This document shows, piece after piece, positions 2,586 through 13,030 of a stretch of DNA of 35,749 bases. Under the pieces are notes generated by a model. It saw only the letters and a list, made by a program, of their open reading frames with translations, was not told the DNA's origin and ran no database searches. Location: contig JAMOOV010000143.1 in NCBI GenBank assembly GCA_027065125.1, positions 1 to 35,749 on the forward strand. The letters run 5' to 3'. Each line of letters begins with the position of its first letter. Within the stretch, counting starts at the first letter, position 1. A program made the position numbers and the translations under genes. This DNA comes from Campylobacterales bacterium. GTDB taxonomy: Bacteria > Campylobacterota > Campylobacteria > Campylobacterales > JALSKU01.

Positions 2586-2885
2586 ATGCATTTGATTAAA
2601 CAAACAGACTATTTTTACAAATGGCTAAAAAAGCTCAAAGATATAAAGGGTAAAGTTTCTATTATTCGTAGAATTGATAGAATGAAAAATGGAAACTTTG
2701 GGGATTATAAATTTGTCGGTAGTAGTGTTTATGAACTCAGGATAACAGTTGGACCCAGATATAGAGTTTATTATACTTTAAAAAGTAGTGATATTATAAT
2801 TTTATTGGTAGGCGGAGATAAATCCACTCAAAACGAAGATATTAAAAAGGCTCAAACTTTTGCAAAGGAGTACCAAGATGGATAA
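2586..2885 (+). CDS. HigB/RelE-like addiction module toxin
   Basis: YKWLKKLKDIKGKVSIIRRIDRMKNGNFGDYKFVGSSVYELRITVGPRYRVYYT matches the compact addiction-module killer protein family. Confidence 0.85.
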   Translation: MHLIKQTDYFYKWLKKLKDIKGKVSIIRRIDRMKNGNFGDYKFVGSSVYELRITVGPRYRVYYTLKSSDIIILLVGGDKSTQNEDIKKAQTFAKEYQDG

Positions 2886-3156
2886 TTTAACTAACTTTGA
2901 TATATCTCAATATTTAGATAATGAAGAAGTAATAGCGGAATACCTAACTCAAGTTTTAAATGATGGCAACAATGAAGAGTTTTTAGAAGCCATAGGACAT
3001 ATAGCTAAAGCTAAAGGAATGTCAAAAATAGCTAAAGATACAGGGCTTGGCAGAGAGAGTCTATACAAATCTTTCTCAGGTAGAACCAAACCAAAATTTG
3101 AAACGGTTATGAAAGTGATAAATTCTCTTGGGGTAAAATTGAAAGTGGCTGTTTAG
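2878..3156 (+). CDS. HigA-like HTH antitoxin
   Basis: Overlaps the toxin ORF; FLEAIGHIAKAKGMSKIAKDTGLGRESLYKSFSGRTKPKFETVMKVINSLG is the family HTH signature. Confidence 0.85.
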   Translation: MDNLTNFDISQYLDNEEVIAEYLTQVLNDGNNEEFLEAIGHIAKAKGMSKIAKDTGLGRESLYKSFSGRTKPKFETVMKVINSLGVKLKVAV

Positions 3157-3494
3157 TCGTCATAGTCATCATCATCCACATAGTCACTATAATCATAGTC
3201 ATAATCATCACTATCCAAATCTAAAAAATCATTATGAAGATAATCATCGTTATCTATGCAGTTATGATTATCATCGTCCGTATAACCTCCGCAAGAGCCC
3301 CTGTTTGTCATGGAAGCACTACTTCTTGAAGATCCAAATAAAAATGATAGAGTGGCAAACATCAGGATAAACCAAAAGAGTTTTGAGAGGAAACCCTTTG
3401 AATTTTCAAAGTTTGTAAATATATATTTGATAAGATGCATATATACAATCAAGATAACTCCTATGAGTAGTATTATCTCAAGTGCATTTATCAT
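3153..3494 (-). CDS. Small membrane protein with Asp/Tyr-rich tail, copy B
   Basis: Nearly identical to copy C (4540-4881); ATGA overlap with its upstream partner. Confidence 0.65.
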   Translation of the reverse strand: MINALEIILLIGVILIVYMHLIKYIFTNFENSKGFLSKLFWFILMFATLSFLFGSSRSSASMTNRGSCGGYTDDDNHNCIDNDDYLHNDFLDLDSDDYDYDYSDYVDDDDYDD

Positions 3495-3724
3495 CTTTTA
3501 TCTTTTTTCTCTTTTATTAAGGTTCTAATGGGATAGCTTATCACTACAGCAGTTCCTTCAAATAAAATAGTAGCCAATCCTCCTATAAATATCACGGGAT
3601 ATAAAGGGATAGCTATAATTTTAGATAGAGTATTTGTATCACTGGATTGGTTGATTTCTTTATAGTCTGCTGCATTCAATAAAGACAAAGATAACAGCAA
3701 GATTAAGATAATTCTTTTGATCAT
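3491..3724 (-). CDS. Small signal-peptide/membrane protein, copy B with divergent N-terminus
   Basis: C-terminal about 42 aa nearly identical to copies A/C; N-terminus MIKRIILILLLSLSLLNAADYKEINQSSDTN differs. Confidence 0.6.
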   Translation of the reverse strand: MIKRIILILLLSLSLLNAADYKEINQSSDTNTLSKIIAIPLYPVIFIGGLATILFEGTAVVISYPIRTLIKEKKDKR

Positions 3725-4115: not shown

Positions 4116-4160
4116 TGGTAGCAGAGGGGGAACTCGAATCCCCGACCTCCGGCTTATGAG
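4116..4160 (-). pseudogene. Orphan tRNA-Met/CAU 3' half including CCA
   Basis: Minus strand ctcataagccggaggtcggggattcgagttccccctctgctacca: anticodon loop CTCATAA, T-arm GGGGA-TTCGAGT-TCCCC, acceptor strand, CCA. Confidence 0.85.
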
Positions 4161-4245
4161 AGATGATGTAAATATTGAAACTACGATATTTAGGGGGTTT
4201 AGTCTTTCGCAATTAACTATAATTATCAATATTTTTATTGATTTT

Positions 4246-4306: not shown

Positions 4307-4543
4307 ATGAAAAAACTGATTATACTTTTTATAGCTTTTACTATTCTTTTTGCTACAAACAATCCAAATGAAAATAAAACTAAAACGGATAATAGATCAT
4401 CAACTCTATCAAAAATTATAGCTATCCCTTTATATCCTGTGATATTTATAGGAGGATTGGCTACTATTTTATTTGAAGGAACTGCCATAGTGATAAGCTA
4501 TCCCATTAGAACCTTAATAAAAGAGAAAAAAGATAAAAGATGA
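4307..4543 (+). CDS. Small signal-peptide/membrane protein, copy C
   Basis: Nearly identical to copy A; ATGA overlap with next gene. Confidence 0.6.
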   Translation: MKKLIILFIAFTILFATNNPNENKTKTDNRSSTLSKIIAIPLYPVIFIGGLATILFEGTAIVISYPIRTLIKEKKDKR

Positions 4544-4881
4544 TAAATACACTTGAGATAATACTACTCATAGGAGTTATTCTGATTGTATATATGCATC
4601 TTATCAAATATATATTTACAAACTTTGAAAATTCAAAGGGTTTCCTCTCAAAACTCTTTTGGTTTATCCTGATGTTTGCCACTCTATCATTTTTATTTGG
4701 ATCTTCAAGAAGTAGTGCCTCCATGACAAACAGAGGCTCTTGTGGAGGTTATACGGACGATGATAATCATAACTGCATAGAAAACGATGATTATCTTCAT
4801 AATGATTTTTTAGATTTGGATAGTGATGATTATGACTATGATTATAGTGACTATGTGGATGATGATGACTATGACGACTAA
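4540..4881 (+). CDS. Small membrane protein with Asp/Tyr-rich tail, copy C
   Basis: Two hydrophobic segments and DDYDYDYSDYVDDDDYDD tail. Confidence 0.65.
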   Translation: MINTLEIILLIGVILIVYMHLIKYIFTNFENSKGFLSKLFWFILMFATLSFLFGSSRSSASMTNRGSCGGYTDDDNHNCIENDDYLHNDFLDLDSDDYDYDYSDYVDDDDYDD

Positions 4882-5172: not shown

Positions 5173-5296
5173 TAAAGATATTACTCTACTTGATTTTGCA
5201 TCTGAAAATATAAATTTTGGTATAATACAAAAAAGCTTAAAAGAAATAATCTGTTAAAATCTTTTTTAGGTGTTATCGCTAAAACAGAGAAAGGCT

Positions 5297-5593
5297 ATGC
5301 AAATGACAAAAGAGGATATAGTATCATATTTAAAAAGCCACAAAAATTACTTTAAAGAAAAATATCAAATATCTAAAATAATACTTTTTGGATCATACTC
5401 AAGAGAAGAGGAAAAAGATGATAGTGATATTGATATAGCCATTGAAACCCCTGTAAGTGACTATTTTTTATTGTATGATTTAAAAGATGAATTAGAGAAG
5501 ATTTTTAATAAAAAAATTGATTTGGTTAGATTGAGAAATAAAATGAATAGTGTTTTTAAAAATCGAATCAATAAAGAAGGTGTCCATGTATGA
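5297..5593 (+). CDS. MNT-domain minimal nucleotidyltransferase (MNT of MNT/HepT module)
   Basis: ILFGSYSREEEKDDSDIDIAIE = GSx10DxD nucleotidyltransferase motif. Confidence 0.85.
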   Translation: MQMTKEDIVSYLKSHKNYFKEKYQISKIILFGSYSREEEKDDSDIDIAIETPVSDYFLLYDLKDELEKIFNKKIDLVRLRNKMNSVFKNRINKEGVHV

Positions 5594-5963
5594 TAAAGAA
5601 ATCATTTTAGAAATTTTAGATCAAATCATAGAAGCGGTAATCACAGTTAAAAGAAGATGTGAATTTGCAAAAGATGTAGATGATTTTTTAGATAGCGACA
5701 CAGGAAAAGAAAAACTTGATAGTATATGTATGAAACTTATTGCGGTAGGCGAAAGTTTGAAAAAGATAGACAAAGTAACTGACAAAAACCTACTTAAAAA
5801 TTACCCAGATATTGAATGGAAAAAAATTATAGGAATTAGAGATTTTATATCTCATCACTACTTTGATTTGGATGCTGAGATAATCTTCGATATTTGTCAA
5901 AGTCATATAAATGATTTGATAGGAACATTACAAACAATAAAATCTCATCTTGAAAAACAATAG
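5586..5963 (+). CDS. HepT-like HEPN ribonuclease (DUF86)
   Basis: GIRDFISHHYF carries RX4HXY; overlaps MNT gene by 8 nt. Confidence 0.85.
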   Translation: MYDKEIILEILDQIIEAVITVKRRCEFAKDVDDFLDSDTGKEKLDSICMKLIAVGESLKKIDKVTDKNLLKNYPDIEWKKIIGIRDFISHHYFDLDAEIIFDICQSHINDLIGTLQTIKSHLEKQ

Positions 5964-6368: not shown

Positions 6369-6390
6369 AGTGTATTTATGATATAATTAT
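6369..6390 (+). promoter_or_regulatory. Putative promoter, shared motif agtgtatttatgNtataattat
   Basis: TATAAT -10 hexamer; 21/22 identical to 7209-7230. Confidence 0.6.
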
Positions 6391-6410
6391 GATGAAGACA
6401 TGATAAAAGG

Positions 6411-7160
6411 ATGAAAAGTATGAAAGGGATGAGTAAAAACATAGAAGAGTTTAGAAAAAAACATAGAAATATGATATTTGGTAAATCAAAGTTATGGAAT
6501 TATAAAGATGATATAAAAATATTATTGGAAGATGGTTTTACAATCGCATTGATTTATAAATATTTGAAAGATTACTACGATATACGATATTCACAAAAAT
6601 ATTTTTATAATTTTATTCGGAGAAATAGAAATAAGATATTAAATTCATCATCTCAAGAAATATATTCCAACGAAACAATAGTAAAAAAAGATATATATAA
6701 TAAAAATACCTCAAACCCCTCTCAAAACAAAAATACAGAGACTTTAAAACCAAAAGCAGTATCTAAACCGGATGAAGCAAAAAAATTAAATACAGAGCAA
6801 AACAGAGAAAAATATAAAGTTACAATAAATGAGTATAAAAAATATTTAGAAATATATGAAAAAGGCATAACAAGTTTGGATCCGGAACGAAATCCAAAAC
6901 TATCAAAGGATGAGTTTGCAAAAGTTATGAAGATGCTATATCAAAAACATCATAAAACATTTGATGATTTATATGAGTTGTATAAAACTGTATTTAGGGA
7001 GGGAAGATATCCAGAATTTAAAAAAAATACAGCAGAAAGAAAGTTGGTAATATTTTTTGTTTTTGCAAATAAAGATAAAAAGATAGAAGTGCAAACAAGT
7101 ATAAATGCGGGCATACCACCATTTAGACCTTGGGAAAAAATATCAGATTTTGGATGGTAA
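6411..7160 (+). CDS. Hypothetical protein with TraK-like N-terminal DNA-binding pattern
   Basis: WNYKDDIKILLEDGFTIALIYKYLKDYYDIRYSQKYFYNFIRR follows the pattern of IncP TraK-type proteins; C-terminal half unassigned. Confidence 0.6.
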   Translation: MKSMKGMSKNIEEFRKKHRNMIFGKSKLWNYKDDIKILLEDGFTIALIYKYLKDYYDIRYSQKYFYNFIRRNRNKILNSSSQEIYSNETIVKKDIYNKNTSNPSQNKNTETLKPKAVSKPDEAKKLNTEQNREKYKVTINEYKKYLEIYEKGITSLDPERNPKLSKDEFAKVMKMLYQKHHKTFDDLYELYKTVFREGRYPEFKKNTAERKLVIFFVFANKDKKIEVQTSINAGIPPFRPWEKISDFGW

Positions 7161-7208
7161 ACCATTTTAACAAGGATAATTATAACATAAATATTTAATC
7201 TATGATTA

Positions 7209-7230
7209 AGTGTATTTATGTTATAATTAT
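7209..7230 (+). promoter_or_regulatory. Putative promoter of the DUF3440 operon
   Basis: agtgtatttatgttataattat with TATAAT, followed by aaaggagg and ATG at 7252. Confidence 0.65.
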
Positions 7231-7251
7231 AAATATAAAAGGAGGAAAGAG

Positions 7252-8547
7252 ATGAGCAGAATAGAAAACTTAAAAGATAATGTATATCAAGCAACTCTTA
7301 AAAGATTAGAATATATATTTAATGAGTTTGATAATATCTATGTCTCTTTTAGTGGCGGTAAAGATAGCGGAGTTTTGCTTAATTTGACTCTTCAATATGC
7401 AAGTGAGACAGGTATGTTACACAAACTTGGAGTGTTTCATATAGATTACGAAGCTCAATATAGCGAGACGACCAATTATGTTGATAGAGTTTATAGTTCA
7501 TTGCCTAAAGAAGTTGAAAATCTAAGATGTTGTGTTCCTCTTAAATGTCCTACATCAACAAGTATGTTTGAAACTTACTGGAGACCTTGGGAAGAATCAA
7601 AAAAAGATATTTGGGTAAGAGATTTGCCTGATAAATATCTATCTAAAAAGGATTTTGATTTTATAACTGACGATATGAGCGATTATGATTTTCAAAAAAG
7701 ATTTTCTTTGTGGTATCACGAAAAGAGAAAAGCTAAAAAAACTTGTGTTTTAATAGGTATAAGAGCTGAAGAAAGTTTAGATAGATGGAGAACTATAGTA
7801 AGTGATAGAAATATCAATAAATATAAAAATACTCCATGGACTACAAAAATGTATGATAATGTTTACAATGCCTATCCGATTTATGACTGGACGACAGAAG
7901 ATATTTGGACTGCTTATGCAAAATTTGGATGGGACTATAATAAACTATATGATCTATTCTATTATGCAGGAGTGCCACTTGGGAGCATGAGGGTTGCATC
8001 TCCTTTTCATGATGCAGCAAAAGCAAATCTATCTTTATACAGAGCTATTGATCCAAATGTTTGGGGAAAAATGGTTAGTAGGGTAAATGGAGTAAATTTT
8101 ACGGCAATTTATGGTGGCACAAAAGCAATGGGATGGAAGAATATCTCTAAACCTAAACATTTTACTTGGAAACAGTATGCTGTGTTTTTGCTGGAAACTT
8201 TGCCTAAAGAGATAGCAGATAACTATAGAGCAAAACTTGAAACAAGTATAAAGTTTTGGAGAAATAAAGGAGGAGTTTTGAGTGATGAAGCTATACAAGA
8301 CTTAAGAGATGCAGGAGTTAAATTTGAAGTGGGAGAAAAGACAAACTATAAAACAGATAAAAAACCTGTTAGAATGGAATATATAGATGAGATAGACAGT
8401 AGAGATTTTACACTTATTCCTACTTGGAAAAGATTGTGCATAACAATTTTAAAAAATGATCATGTTGGAAAATATATGGGATTTTCTCAAACAAAAAAAG
8501 AGATGGCTAAGAGAAAAGCAGCTCTTGAAAAATATAGAAACCTTTAA
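7252..8547 (+). CDS. DUF3440 PAPS-reductase/ATP pyrophosphatase-like protein (IbrA-like)
   Basis: VSFSGGKDSGVLLNL PP-loop; RCCVPLKCPTSTSMFETYWRPWEESKKDIWVRDLP; TWKRLCITILKNDH near the C-terminus. Confidence 0.9.
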   Translation: MSRIENLKDNVYQATLKRLEYIFNEFDNIYVSFSGGKDSGVLLNLTLQYASETGMLHKLGVFHIDYEAQYSETTNYVDRVYSSLPKEVENLRCCVPLKCPTSTSMFETYWRPWEESKKDIWVRDLPDKYLSKKDFDFITDDMSDYDFQKRFSLWYHEKRKAKKTCVLIGIRAEESLDRWRTIVSDRNINKYKNTPWTTKMYDNVYNAYPIYDWTTEDIWTAYAKFGWDYNKLYDLFYYAGVPLGSMRVASPFHDAAKANLSLYRAIDPNVWGKMVSRVNGVNFTAIYGGTKAMGWKNISKPKHFTWKQYAVFLLETLPKEIADNYRAKLETSIKFWRNKGGVLSDEAIQDLRDAGVKFEVGEKTNYKTDKKPVRMEYIDEIDSRDFTLIPTWKRLCITILKNDHVGKYMGFSQTKKEMAKRKAALEKYRNL

Positions 8548-8557
8548 GGAATAGATT

Positions 8558-8977
8558 ATGACAATAGTTAAAAAATATGTACAAGGTATTGATAACAAAG
8601 AGATATTTGGCAATATCGGATCTTGGCTAACAAATAAAAAAGTACATGATGAACTTGGAATGGCAATTACATCTCAAGATGGGGATATTTGGTATATCTC
8701 TTTTTTAAATAATGTAGTAACCGGATTTGCACTATACAGAAAAACTAAATCTACAAATGCAATCCATGTAAGATTTGTTTATGGTGCTCCCAATGAAAAA
8801 GAGATGCTTGTTAAAAAGATCATAGAAGATGCAAAAAATGAAAATATTAAGACAGTATGGACTAACGATAGAAAAAGCGAAGCTGTATGGAAAAAGTTAA
8901 AATTCAAATTTACTCCAAGAAATAGAGGAGAATTTGGAAGATGGGAGAGAGAAATTAAAAAAGGAGGAAAGAGATGA
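8558..8977 (+). CDS. GNAT-like acyltransferase-fold protein
   Basis: NNVVTGFALYRKTKSTNAIHVRFVYGAPNEKEMLVKKIIEDAKNENIKTVWTNDRKSEAVWKKLKFKFTPRNRGEFGRWER has a GNAT-like pattern. Confidence 0.6.
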   Translation: MTIVKKYVQGIDNKEIFGNIGSWLTNKKVHDELGMAITSQDGDIWYISFLNNVVTGFALYRKTKSTNAIHVRFVYGAPNEKEMLVKKIIEDAKNENIKTVWTNDRKSEAVWKKLKFKFTPRNRGEFGRWEREIKKGGKR

Positions 8978-9495
8978 GCTTTAAAAGTCCAATATATAAT
9001 GTAAAAGCTGTGCCGGTTGAAAAAGTAAGAGCAAATTCTTATAATCCTAATAGAGTTGCACCACCGGAGATGAAACTACTTGAAAAATCTATATGGGAAG
9101 ATGGATACACTCAACCTGTAGTATGTTACTATATAGAGGATGAAGATATTTATGAGATAGTAGATGGATTTCATAGATATACAATTATGAAAAAATCCAA
9201 AAAAATCTATGATAGAGAAAAAGGTTTACTTCCTGTAGTTGTTATAGAAAAAGATAAAAGCAATAGAATGGCATCAACTATAAGACACAACAGAGCAAGA
9301 GGAACACACGATATAGACCTTATGGTTAAAATGGTTGGCGAATTGGTAGAAAGTGGGATGAGTGATCAGTGGATAAGTAAAAATTTAGGAATGGATGCAG
9401 ATGAGTTATTAAGACTTAAGCAGATAAGCGGAATTGCTGCACTTTTTGCAAATAGTGAATTTTCGCAAGGTTGGGAAAAAGAGGTAAATGGCTAA
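8974..9495 (+). CDS. ParB/Srx-fold N-terminal domain protein (IbrB-like)
   Basis: VPVEKVRANSYNPN...MKLLEKSIWEDGYTQPVV...YEIVDGFHRYTI; MASTIRHNRARGTH; ATGA overlap with previous gene. Confidence 0.9.
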   Translation: MSFKSPIYNVKAVPVEKVRANSYNPNRVAPPEMKLLEKSIWEDGYTQPVVCYYIEDEDIYEIVDGFHRYTIMKKSKKIYDREKGLLPVVVIEKDKSNRMASTIRHNRARGTHDIDLMVKMVGELVESGMSDQWISKNLGMDADELLRLKQISGIAALFANSEFSQGWEKEVNG

Positions 9496-11743
9496 TTGGT
9501 ATCATTATTATATAAAAAGTAAATATTTACTATATGAAAACAATAAGTCTTGTTTGTTTAAAGTTCCAAATAGCAATTATAAATTTTGGCATCCTGCAAA
9601 AATTGTAAAACATATACCCGATGAAGATAAAATAAAAATTTTATATACGGATAATTTTAAATTTAGACTTTTCAAATCAAAGAAAGAGAATGAAAACTGG
9701 ATTAATTATGATGAGAAAATCGTAAGGATATCAGGATTAAAAGAAATTATAGAAAAGCCCATTAATCTTAAATTAAAAAAAGGACATATTCTTGCACAAA
9801 CAGAAAAAGCTTATTTGTTTGGCTATATGGATATGGATCGCAATTTCTTTAAATTTTGGGTAAATAAAGATATTTGTTATAAAACTAAAAATGAGATATG
9901 GATCTATTTAAAAAGGGATGAGAAGTATAAAAGAATAACAATAGATGATAATTTTGAAGAAAAGACTGAAGAGATTGATAGTATTGATTTGTATGTACAT
10001 TGTTTATCAACACAATTAACTCTTAAAAAGCTTTCTATTGAATTAATTCCGGATAAATTAGTAGTTCCGAAAAATATCACTATTGATAAGTCACTAAAAG
10101 ATGATGATAATAATAATTATAATGAAATCGGTTTGTTACAAACAAAAACAAAACTATTTTTGCATCAACAAAAAGCGGTTGCAAAAGTTCTTCCTGCAAA
10201 ATACAGTGCATTATTTATGGATATGGGAACCGGAAAGACACGAACAACTATCGAAATATTAAAAATAAGACAAAACAAATATAGAAAAGTTTTTTGGATT
10301 ACACCAGTATCTCTAAAACATAATATTTTATTAGAATTTTTAAAACATACAAATTTATCAAGAAAAGATATTTATCTATTTGATGATAAAACCAACGACA
10401 AAACAATAATAAATCAAAATTTTATAATTGTCGGAATTGAATCAATAGCATCTTCCGATAGAGTTTATTTATCATTAGAAAAGATGATAAAAGATGATGA
10501 TTTTATTGTGGTAGATGAAAGTAGTTTTATAAAGGGCAACACAAGAAGAGTTAAAAGAGTTAAAAGAATAATAGAATTAACAAAAAACACAAAATACAGA
10601 ATGATATTAACCGGAACACCCATAAGTCAAGGTATAGTAGATCTTTATAGTCAAATGTATTTTTTATCTCCTAAGATTTTAGGTTATAAAAATTTTTATC
10701 AATTTGCAAAAAATCATCTTGAATATGATAAACACATTGTAGGACGGATTATTTCTGAACATAACGAGGATTATATTGCTGCAAAAATAAATCCTTATGT
10801 TTATCAAGTAAGCAAAGAAGAGTGTTTGGATCTGAAGGAAAAAAATTATATTGAAAATTTTTTTACAATGAGTTGTGAACAAGAACATTTATATAATAAT
10901 GCAAAAGAGAAATTTTTCGAACAATTTCTTTCCTATGATATAGATTCTATATTTCCATTGTTTAATGAACTGCAACAAATAGCATCAGGCTTCCGGTATA
11001 AAAAAGATGGGGAAATACAAATTATCGATAAGAGAAGAGCAATATTTCTTAGCAATATATTAAAAGAGATTGGGATAGAAAACAAAGTTATAATCTGGAC
11101 AAAATACAGAGCAGATATTATGCTTATTAGAGAGATATTGGAAGAAGAGTTCGGAATAAATAGTTTTGTAATATATGATGGCACATTAAATGAAAAAGAA
11201 AAAAATCAAACAATAAGCAAATTTAGAGTTGATATGAGTATTAGATTCTTTGTTGCAATGCAATCTACGGGAGCTTTTGGATTGAACTTAACAGAGGCAA
11301 ATTATGCAATCTTTTATAATAATAGTTTTAAATATTCACAAAGAATACAAGCAGAAGATAGAATTTATCGCATCGGACAAAATAGACATGTTGTTTATAT
11401 AGATATAATTTGTTGGAACAGTATTGATAAAACAATAAACTCAGTATTGCATAAAAAAAAGAATGTCGTCGAATATTTTAGAAACGAGGTAAATTCTATT
11501 AAAGATAAAAAATTAAAAAAATCTATTTTAGATGCAATTATAAAAGGCGATCTTGACAAAATAGAAAAGATTAAAAAAATTGCAAATAAAAGTAGTGCAG
11601 CTAAACGAATGGAAAAAATGAGAAGAAAAAGAGGTGTTATACCAAGAGAAGAGTATTTAAAAAAGTCACTTTCACACAAACAGCCTTGGAAAGAGCTTGG
11701 CATCAGCAGGGCTACTTGGTATAGAAGATATAAAACCGCATAG
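9488..11743 (+). CDS. SNF2-family DEAD/DEAH-type helicase with C-terminal HTH-like extension
   Basis: MDMGTGKTRTTIEIL (motif I), VVDESSFIKG (II), LTGTPISQ (III), QAEDRIYRIGQ (VI); tail PWKELGISRATWYRRYKTA; overlaps parB-like ORF. Confidence 0.9.
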   Translation: MANWYHYYIKSKYLLYENNKSCLFKVPNSNYKFWHPAKIVKHIPDEDKIKILYTDNFKFRLFKSKKENENWINYDEKIVRISGLKEIIEKPINLKLKKGHILAQTEKAYLFGYMDMDRNFFKFWVNKDICYKTKNEIWIYLKRDEKYKRITIDDNFEEKTEEIDSIDLYVHCLSTQLTLKKLSIELIPDKLVVPKNITIDKSLKDDDNNNYNEIGLLQTKTKLFLHQQKAVAKVLPAKYSALFMDMGTGKTRTTIEILKIRQNKYRKVFWITPVSLKHNILLEFLKHTNLSRKDIYLFDDKTNDKTIINQNFIIVGIESIASSDRVYLSLEKMIKDDDFIVVDESSFIKGNTRRVKRVKRIIELTKNTKYRMILTGTPISQGIVDLYSQMYFLSPKILGYKNFYQFAKNHLEYDKHIVGRIISEHNEDYIAAKINPYVYQVSKEECLDLKEKNYIENFFTMSCEQEHLYNNAKEKFFEQFLSYDIDSIFPLFNELQQIASGFRYKKDGEIQIIDKRRAIFLSNILKEIGIENKVIIWTKYRADIMLIREILEEEFGINSFVIYDGTLNEKEKNQTISKFRVDMSIRFFVAMQSTGAFGLNLTEANYAIFYNNSFKYSQRIQAEDRIYRIGQNRHVVYIDIICWNSIDKTINSVLHKKKNVVEYFRNEVNSIKDKKLKKSILDAIIKGDLDKIEKIKKIANKSSAAKRMEKMRRKRGVIPREEYLKKSLSHKQPWKELGISRATWYRRYKTA

Positions 11744-11802: not shown

Positions 11803-12219
11803 TTGGGAAGTAAAAACAGAATATACCTTGGCATTATTGCAGATATAATACTTCATTTTCATAGAAACTTTTTTTCAAATAAAAAGATATATATGAGCAA
11901 AAGAGTTCATAAAAAAATCAAAGATAAACATAAAGATATAGCCAAATTTGCACAATCTAAAGAGTTTTCAATCCTACTTAGCTCTATAATCGCTTCTGTT
12001 AATTACAAAAAAGATGAATCTATCATAAACTTTATATCTTTTGTAGAATCAGAAAACAAATTTATACTGTTTGCTCTAAAAAGAGAGAAGCATCATACAT
12101 CTTGCAGTACAATATTTTCATTAAGACCGGAAACACTAAGAAAATACTATATAGATAAAAGCTTTCGCTTATTTAAACAGGATTTTAAAGATTTTATAGA
12201 TAGATACATAGCAGACTAA
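11803..12219 (+). CDS. Hypothetical protein, possibly BECR-fold (RelE/barnase-like) nuclease
   Basis: MSKRVHKKIKDKHKDIAKF...KFILFALKREK...CSTIFSLRPETLRKYY resembles short phage/toxin-type BECR domains; weak. Confidence 0.45.
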   Translation: MGSKNRIYLGIIADIILHFHRNFFSNKKIYMSKRVHKKIKDKHKDIAKFAQSKEFSILLSSIIASVNYKKDESIINFISFVESENKFILFALKREKHHTSCSTIFSLRPETLRKYYIDKSFRLFKQDFKDFIDRYIAD

Positions 12220-12342
12220 GTTCGGAGACCAATCCGAAATCTCTTATCCTCGTCAGCCGAACTGTTACGGGCATCTATCACCTTGGGCAAAGTTTCCTTT
12301 GCTGTAGGCATATGGGAGGTCACTTTCCACCTCTTAGTCTGC
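12211..12342. ncRNA. Candidate structured RNA element, family and strand unknown
   Basis: Closed by a perfect 10-bp stem (12211-12220/12333-12342); internal hairpins ttcgga/tccgaa, gcaaag-tttc-ctttgc, gaggt/acctc; about 49% GC by hand count in a much more AT-rich context. Confidence 0.45.
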
Positions 12343-12543
12343 TTGTTAATCAAATTATATTATAAAACTAAAAAAATGTCAATTTTGGTTATTTTTTAAC
12401 ACGGTAATCAATTCCATTCTTTTCTATCTAATTTTAAAAATCAAAAATATGTATATAGTCAACCCTGAAAAATCCAAATCCCCAAAGATTAACCATTCTA
12501 CATCTTCAATTCTACCATAATTTTAAAACCATTAAAAATAGTG

Positions 12544-13030
<487 letters not shown>

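Follow-up and report, generated by a model that had tools for sequence, protein, structure and literature searches.

DNA phosphorothioation pairs the PP-loop enzyme DndC with DndB, a protein of the ParB superfamily, and the Dpd system of 7-deazaguanine DNA modification pairs DpdA with the ParB-like ATPase DpdB (PMC12839542, PMC11662687). DndC requires an Fe–S cysteine, C280 being needed (PMC11662687). Another such couple, IbrA and IbrB, is represented in Escherichia coli K-12 by YbdN and YbdM, whose genes (ybdNM) are repressed by citR (PMC9068703). In the ΔcitR strain ybdN rises by 5.5 log2 units and sulfate-assimilation genes by about 2–3 (PMC9068703 Table 1); flagellar genes change too, and we infer no cause from the co-rise (PMC9068703). 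The locus described here belongs to a Campylobacterales bacterium and lies on contig C143 (JAMOOV010000143.1), which was analysed as a whole (35,749 b, hereafter the window) and comes from a 2.02-Mb draft genome. It carries a horizontally moving cassette of four genes, in the order IbrA–GNAT–IbrB–SNF2, that may serve to mark nucleic acid.

The four open reading frames (ORFs) proposed in an earlier note on this DNA were confirmed, all on the + strand (7210/7252-8547, 8558-8977, 8974-9495 and 9488-11743), and the ATGA overlap (8974-8977) and 8-nucleotide (nt) overlap (9488-9495) that it claimed were both read in the sequence. A 10-nt gap separates the ibrA-like from the GNAT-like gene. The start of IbrA had been placed at 7209/7210, but according to the family alignment ATG 7252, located behind the Shine-Dalgarno sequence AGGAGG (7240-7245), is the most likely one. 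The ibrA-like gene (7252-8547, +) thus probably encodes 431 amino acids (aa), with a PP-loop domain of the phosphoadenosine phosphosulfate (PAPS) reductase fold (SGGKDS at aa 34) and a DUF3440 domain. It is followed by the gene of a small GNAT-fold protein of 139 aa without an acetyl-CoA loop (8558-8977, +; family profile E 7e-22 and a fold match), by an ibrB-like gene (8974-9495, +; 173 aa) with a ParB/Srx-type domain (DGFHR, RHNRARGTH) and a helix-turn-helix (HTH)-like C-terminal part, and by the gene of a 751-aa SNF2-family ATPase with intact motifs and fused N-terminal domains (9488-11743, +; PF00176, PF00271). In hidden Markov model searches the DUF3440, ParB and SNF2 assignments stood above the Pfam cut-offs, whereas that of GNAT fell below (0.056).

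A search for co-occurrence of the four genes elsewhere recovered the exact cassette once more, so the objection of non-recurrence fails. DUF3440 is present in 8 of 398 genomes of the phylum and the window-type helicase in two of them, namely the window's own genome and G132, which belongs to another family of the same taxonomic order. Locus L107 of G132 has the genes arranged as in the window, with the helicase likewise fused (752 aa). The two cassettes share 87% protein identity in IbrA, 60% in GNAT, 87% in IbrB and 70% in SNF2. Their nucleotide homology (76–79%) spans window positions 7179–11735 and ends at the cassette edges, beyond which short stretches alone align, elsewhere in L107. The ratios of nonsynonymous to synonymous substitutions (dN/dS), rough values obtained by a simple counting method with dS near 1, are 0.10 for IbrA, 0.29 for GNAT, 0.08 for IbrB and 0.18 for SNF2; the genes are under purifying selection. 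Carriage is sparse, with 1 of 18 genomes in the family of G132 and 1 of 9 in that of the window (the latter by the DUF3440 model). The closest IbrA among named genomes is that of Xenorhabdus japonica (73%), whereas those encoded by other sampled genomes of the phylum (L109–L111) show about 39% identity. Given these homology edges, the sparse carriage and the distant closest relative, the cassette moves horizontally, and it is maintained by selection. Its G+C content (28.8%) is that of the toxin-antitoxin-rich upstream stretch (28.7%), compared with 35.1% in the metabolic genes downstream. The proposal that these linked genes form an operon on mobile DNA is supported, with IbrA and IbrB as its constant core.

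The region upstream of the cassette (7179-7251, +), which begins at the left edge of the L107 homology, contains a promoter-like -10 TATAAT (7222-7227) ahead of the Shine-Dalgarno sequence. A single promoter, as suggested before, is plausible because this -10 (TATAATTAT) upstream of IbrA is kept in L107, although promoter-like matches in the region are no commoner than in shuffles (38 versus 41 +- 7). L107 has a second promoter-like stretch between GNAT and IbrB, including a conserved -10, at the place of the ATGA overlap of the window; the L107 cassette therefore probably has two transcription starts. On the - strand of L107 (4113-6489), some 1 kb upstream of the cassette, lie the genes of a restriction enzyme of the BsuBI/PstI type and a methylase of the Eco57I type.

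The neighbourhood of IbrA was surveyed in 90 loci, consisting of the window, nine phage/plasmid records and 80 genome contigs, some of which end early. As the contigs were picked by IbrA similarity, the counts describe the window's IbrA subfamily only. Profile searches found IbrB near IbrA in 86 of the 90 loci, a GNAT-like gene in 52, SNF2 in 28 and a gene or domain here named KFW in 12. IbrA precedes IbrB in 82 of 86 loci with both; GNAT lies at most 50 nt ahead of IbrA in 50 of the 51 loci where both were found, and SNF2 is ahead of IbrA in 23 of 26. GNAT and SNF2 are nearly mutually exclusive: besides the window, both were present only in L012 (Verrucomicrobiales) and L017 (Rikenellaceae), where the four genes are reordered, and L107, outside the set, adds a fourth such locus. 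Three-gene forms are widespread. The recurrence of linkage and overlaps in independent genomes makes both more than chance, and SNF2 and the pseudo-GNAT are best read as two alternative partners of IbrAB.

The IbrAB genes are carried by virulent and temperate phages, plasmids, islands and chromosomes; a distribution restricted to prophages was rejected, since chromosomal loci were found too. The order SNF2–IbrA–IbrB occurs in Streptococcus phages Pika and CHPC1062 and Lactobacillus phage AQ113, and Fusobacterium phage phiFN37 has IbrA–IbrB–KFW–SNF2. Mycobacterium phage Nebkiss encodes a shorter helicase, IbrA and ParB. IbrAB stands without GNAT or SNF2 partners in E. coli K-12 (ybdNM), in a phage of E. 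coli and on one plasmid each of Klebsiella and Vibrio; on a Natrinema plasmid, IbrA is accompanied by an IbrB-like gene labelled hypothetical. Behind the four genes of phiFN37 (L008, 10751-12036) there is a second ParB-like gene, followed by an annotated queuine tRNA-ribosyltransferase; these were considered as a Dpd-like neighbour, but neither Pfam nor PADLOC confirmed the label, which was not used as evidence. In a Puniceicoccales metagenome-assembled genome (L045, 3710-4993) a stop or frameshift splits IbrA into two ORFs.

The window's IbrA matched PF11922 (5e-83; 277.7 bits, cut-off 25), PF01507 (3e-16; 60.5 bits, cut-off 22.5) and the phage family phrog_2302 (E 7e-104). The motifs SGGKDS and GxRxxESxxR are near-invariant in 98 IbrA sequences of bacterial, phage and archaeal-plasmid origin; therefore, ATP-pyrophosphatase chemistry is expected. 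The chemistry of PAPS reductase was rejected. The ECGLH motif is absent from the window's IbrA, ECG occurs in 1 of 98 homologues, and the NCBIfam CysH scores are far below the cut-offs (TIGR00434, 17.8 bits against 165.1). This contradicts the label 'phosphoadenosine phosphosulfate reductase' which is often given to DUF3440/IbrA among its hundreds of phage and plasmid records. IbrA also matches TilS and TtcA weakly, within the PP-loop portion only. Cysteines were found at position 94 in 96% of the homologues, at 396 in 85%, at 398 in 79% and at 406 in 92%; none is invariant, although no homologue lacks all four. A sulfur transfer that relies on a single fixed cysteine is thus not supported. 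Nor is the DndC-like thiolation contemplated in the earlier note, as the window's IbrA also lacks a CxxC motif and no cysteine desulfurase gene is conserved near IbrA.

IbrB was recognised by PF02195 (3.5e-7; 30.6 bits, cut-off 26.3) and by the phage ParB family phrog_2159 (5e-80). Its DGxHR and RHNRARGxH motifs are near-invariant across the family and are located where ParB has its nucleotide-binding motifs. By alignment, the 173-aa protein ends after the HTH-like part and lacks the ParB dimerisation domain. No ParA partner was found in the cassette or among the conserved neighbours, and IbrB does not qualify as a ParB partition protein. The GNAT-like protein has a GNAT fold in its AlphaFold model (predicted local distance difference test, pLDDT, 80.7), for which the input alignments, as for the other models, comprised the window and genome-contig loci without phage or plasmid rows. 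Searches of this model against the PDB returned GNAT matches (best E 5.9e-6, probability 1.00). A helix directly follows the central strand, at the expected position of the acetyl-CoA loop, and the pyrophosphate-loop motif [QR]xxGx[GA] is found neither in the window protein nor in its L107 counterpart; of 51 family members, 47 lack it. With this loop missing, a Mom-like acylation, which had been proposed for the GNAT-like protein, is not supported.

The helicase matched the Pfam models SNF2 (4e-16) and Helicase_C (2.5e-12), and its motifs are intact: GTGKT at 247 (Walker A), DES at 343 (DExx), GTP at 376 (motif III) and QAEDRIYRIGQ at 621 (motif VI). The SNF2 core (aa 220-684; 10145-11539, +) was delimited with a profile of IbrAB-linked helicases (E 5e-146). 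About 210 extra N-terminal residues, absent from the earlier description, precede it, and the first ~207 of the protein form two tandem copies of the small KFW domain. In phage and Firmicutes loci KFW is instead encoded on its own next to SNF2; the stand-alone genes of Streptococcus, Listeria, Lactobacillus and Fusobacterium loci measure 109–134 aa and abut or overlap the helicase gene. Copy 1 (aa 1-95; 9488-9772, +) is clear by profile and alignments, its i-Evalue of 2e-25 being inflated because the window copy itself sat in the profile; unaided BLAST and alignment give it 35% identity to the Pika protein, and the L107 helicase, which did not contribute to the profile, scores 1e-21. Copy 2 (about aa 95-207; 9770-10108, +) is diverged and weak by profile (i-Evalue 0.13), and was placed also by alignments, the boundaries of the stand-alone proteins and a C-terminal motif. 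The KFW model (pLDDT 75.6) suggests a small beta-rich domain; it has no relative in the PDB, and its viral matches are only weakly described. No phage or plasmid record covered 80% of the fused protein. Such a fusion points to KFW and SNF2 working together.

Of the parts first singled out as unusual, a coupled helicase and a GNAT gene occur elsewhere too; what is unusual is that the helicase is fused and that GNAT lies between IbrA and IbrB. The new elements are the KFW–SNF2 fusion and the GNAT-fold protein intercalated in IbrAB. No description of an association of DUF3440 with SNF2 or GNAT was found in the open-access literature, which leaves subscription journals largely uncovered.

The reading that we favour, tentatively and at somewhat less than even confidence, is a horizontally moving module of the IbrAB type for the ATP-driven marking or modification of nucleic acid, which would most likely be DNA, either that of the mobile element or that of its host. 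Nucleic-acid marking is the best guess because a modifying enzyme with a ParB/Srx partner, as in Dnd and Dpd, is here carried on mobile DNA. Cysteine-independent PP-loop enzymes adenylate, and so activate, substrate groups, and IbrA may do the same by means of its PP-loop and ATP. IbrB, with its nucleoside triphosphate (NTP)-binding ParB/Srx fold, would bind nucleotide and nucleic acid as a probably obligate partner of IbrA. The SNF2 ATPase with its KFW domains might move along duplex DNA or expose it for IbrAB, and the GNAT-fold protein might be a structural or specificity subunit; the target of the module is presumed to be nucleic acid.

This reading is favoured by the constant pair of IbrA and IbrB with alternative partners across the 90 loci, by the conserved active-site motifs of IbrA, IbrB and SNF2, by the purifying selection on the cassette shared with a second family, and by carriage on phages, plasmids and islands, in L107 near the restriction-modification pair. 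Several points weigh against it. To our knowledge, a modified nucleoside has been demonstrated for no IbrAB system, and E. coli K-12 carries ybdNM, yet we know of no matching DNA modification in it. No nuclease or desulfurase family was conspicuous among the other neighbours in the survey, where each cluster was assigned to a family by its longest member. SNF2 is missing from many IbrAB loci, and the helicase is therefore not essential to the core function. The cysteines of IbrA vary, as described above, and sequence searches of the PDB returned no IbrA or IbrB structures.

Literature of 2002 reportedly named IbrA and IbrB as co-activators of prophage eib genes, and the Ibr name persists in phage records. 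On the strength of this phenotype the cassette might be a controller of gene expression that modifies nothing, with IbrB as a ParB-like DNA-binding regulator, IbrA as an ATP-dependent co-activator and SNF2 stripping proteins from DNA. The HTH-like segment behind the ParB domain of IbrB would suit such a role, and deletion of citR derepresses ybdNM alongside broad expression changes, although these are confounded by the loss of CitR itself and by the flagellar genes (PMC9068703). The near-invariant PP-loop and GxRxxESxxR of IbrA, however, imply catalysis, which a pure co-activator does not need, and we consider this explanation unlikely. ParB/Srx proteins can also be nucleases and NTPases (PMC5512222), which brings to mind a module for defence or competition, where IbrB would be an NTP-regulated nuclease or nucleotidase, SNF2 a translocating sensor and IbrA an activator. 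SNF2 helicases are part of Zorya, DISARM, BREX and Dpd, the window SNF2 matches ZorD (2e-35) and DpdE (2e-25), the island has toxin-antitoxin genes, and L107 has a restriction-modification system. Such a function is nevertheless distinctly unlikely: the neighbour survey revealed no recognised nuclease or toxin conserved with the module, IbrB has no PADLOC match, the SNF2 matches are those of a generic ATPase core (64.8 bits with NCBIfam ZorD, cut-off 1500), and phages, virulent as well as temperate, themselves encode the genes. PADLOC does not support assigning the cassette to a known defence system, and for Zorya, DISARM and BREX generic SNF2 and weak PP-loop matches were found instead of the full protein set.

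Many PP-loop enzymes act on tRNA, TilS, TtcA, MnmA and ThiI being established families of this kind, and IbrA weakly matches the first two. The cassette could thus be imagined to modify RNA, for example tRNA, as a phage counter to tRNA-targeting defences or in support of translation. We give this a low probability, since the tRNA-enzyme matches are limited to the PP-loop, SNF2 is a family of duplex-DNA ATPases, and ParB proteins are DNA-binding proteins. In papers on phages, genes with PF01507 are often labelled PAPS reductase (e.g. PMC10434257), and the PF01507 match of IbrA, together with the rise of the cys regulon with ybdN in citR-deleted E. coli (PMC9068703 Table 1), might point to an auxiliary of sulfur assimilation that supplies sulfite. 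This is very improbable in view of the motifs and CysH scores reported above, and the constant partner is ParB-like, neither a thioredoxin nor a sulfite reductase. Even the chance adjacency of unrelated mobile genes may be thought of, given that the island is low in G+C and rich in small mobile genes; its probability is negligible, as it is refuted by the recurrence of the cassette, with the same four-gene order in L107 at dN/dS 0.08-0.29 and tight linkage in dozens of loci.

Outside the conserved cassette, the upstream gene (6411-7160, +) encodes a 249-aa, weakly DUF5338-like protein (E 0.039), which may be a regulator or a plasmid-type protein. A 41-nt promoter-like sequence (repeat D6; 6369-6409 and 7209-7249, 76% identity) lies ahead of both this gene and ibrA. 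The homologue in L107 (14606-15238) is located away from the cassette and adjoins a ParA-like gene. Further upstream in the window, a block of ~450-480 nt with two small ORFs is present in three copies 94-98% alike (163-609, 3153-3631 and, inverted, 4403-4881), which lie amid other small mobile genes. Likely toxin-antitoxin modules were found at 847-1398, 2586-3156 and 5270-5963, encoding a ParE toxin, a Gp49/HigB-like toxin and a HepT-like RNase, each with a small ORF. By eye, tRNA 3'-end look-alikes were noticed at ~1590-1640 and ~4120-4165, which may mark where an integrated element was attached; no whole tRNA was found by ARAGORN. Downstream of the cassette, a candidate skipping-rope RNA (RF02924; 12213-12340, - strand) reached 29.7 bits against a gathering score of 36.7, with E 3e-5 in a 271-base search and a fold z-score of -3.95. 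A perfect TTGACA-17-TATAAT is located upstream of it (12382-12354, - strand), and the surrounding 287 nt (12172-12458) occur again at the start of contig C181 (99%). Remnants resembling insertion-sequence transposase genes, as judged by eye, lie at 12544-13030; a 34-nt stretch there is repeated exactly, in direct orientation, at 12954 and 12997.

The conserved partners described here reveal what IbrAB works with, and the four-gene unit, which is small, cloneable and accompanied by a natural second copy for comparison, offers a test bed for the long-unknown activity of IbrAB/YbdNM. If DNA or RNA is indeed modified, this would be a new chemistry in the conflict between phages and their hosts.

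Among the described systems, the IbrA/IbrB pairs of the E. coli ECOR-9 island, of prophages and of K-12 (YbdN/YbdM) likewise consist of a DUF3440 PP-loop enzyme followed by a ParB-domain protein with matching active-site motifs; their IbrA is about 32-34% identical to that of the window, and they have no adjoining GNAT or SNF2. In the phage and prophage loci of Streptococcus, Listeria, Lactobacillus and Fusobacterium KFW, SNF2, IbrA and IbrB abut or overlap as in the window, but KFW is a single separate gene, GNAT is absent and SNF2 stands before IbrA (after IbrB in phiFN37). The Bacteroidota loci share the homologous GNAT-fold protein, IbrA and IbrB, but GNAT comes first and, as a rule, SNF2 is lacking. 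With Dnd/Ssp phosphorothioation the window has in common a PP-loop enzyme (DndC) and a ParB-superfamily protein (DndB). It differs in having no DndD/DndE, no desulfurase gene and no Fe-S cysteine motif in IbrA, and the match to the DndC equivalog TIGR03183 is far below the cut-off (17.7 bits against 290.4). DndC was not found in the whole window genome, nor were DndD, DndE or a desulfurase among the conserved neighbours in the survey, and Dnd membership was rejected on these grounds, although a desulfurase might act in trans. Dpd likewise joins a modifying enzyme to the ParB-like ATPase DpdB and to an SNF2-family protein, named DpdE in PADLOC, but in the window a PP-loop enzyme replaces DpdA, which is of the tRNA-guanine transglycosylase (TGT) type, and IbrB is not matched by PADLOC. 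Neither a TGT-type enzyme nor DpdC was found among the cassette genes, where the SNF2 core alone matches DpdE. The cassette is thus comparable in parts to Dnd and Dpd and is a member of neither, as the defining parts of both are missing. A wider view, which we regard as doubtful, is that IbrAB modules represent a further ParB/Srx-partnered modification lineage beside Dnd and Dpd, which would make a new, probably sulfur-independent nucleoside with SNF2-KFW or a GNAT-fold protein devoid of the acetyl-CoA loop as partner in phages, plasmids, archaea and bacteria, including E. coli K-12.

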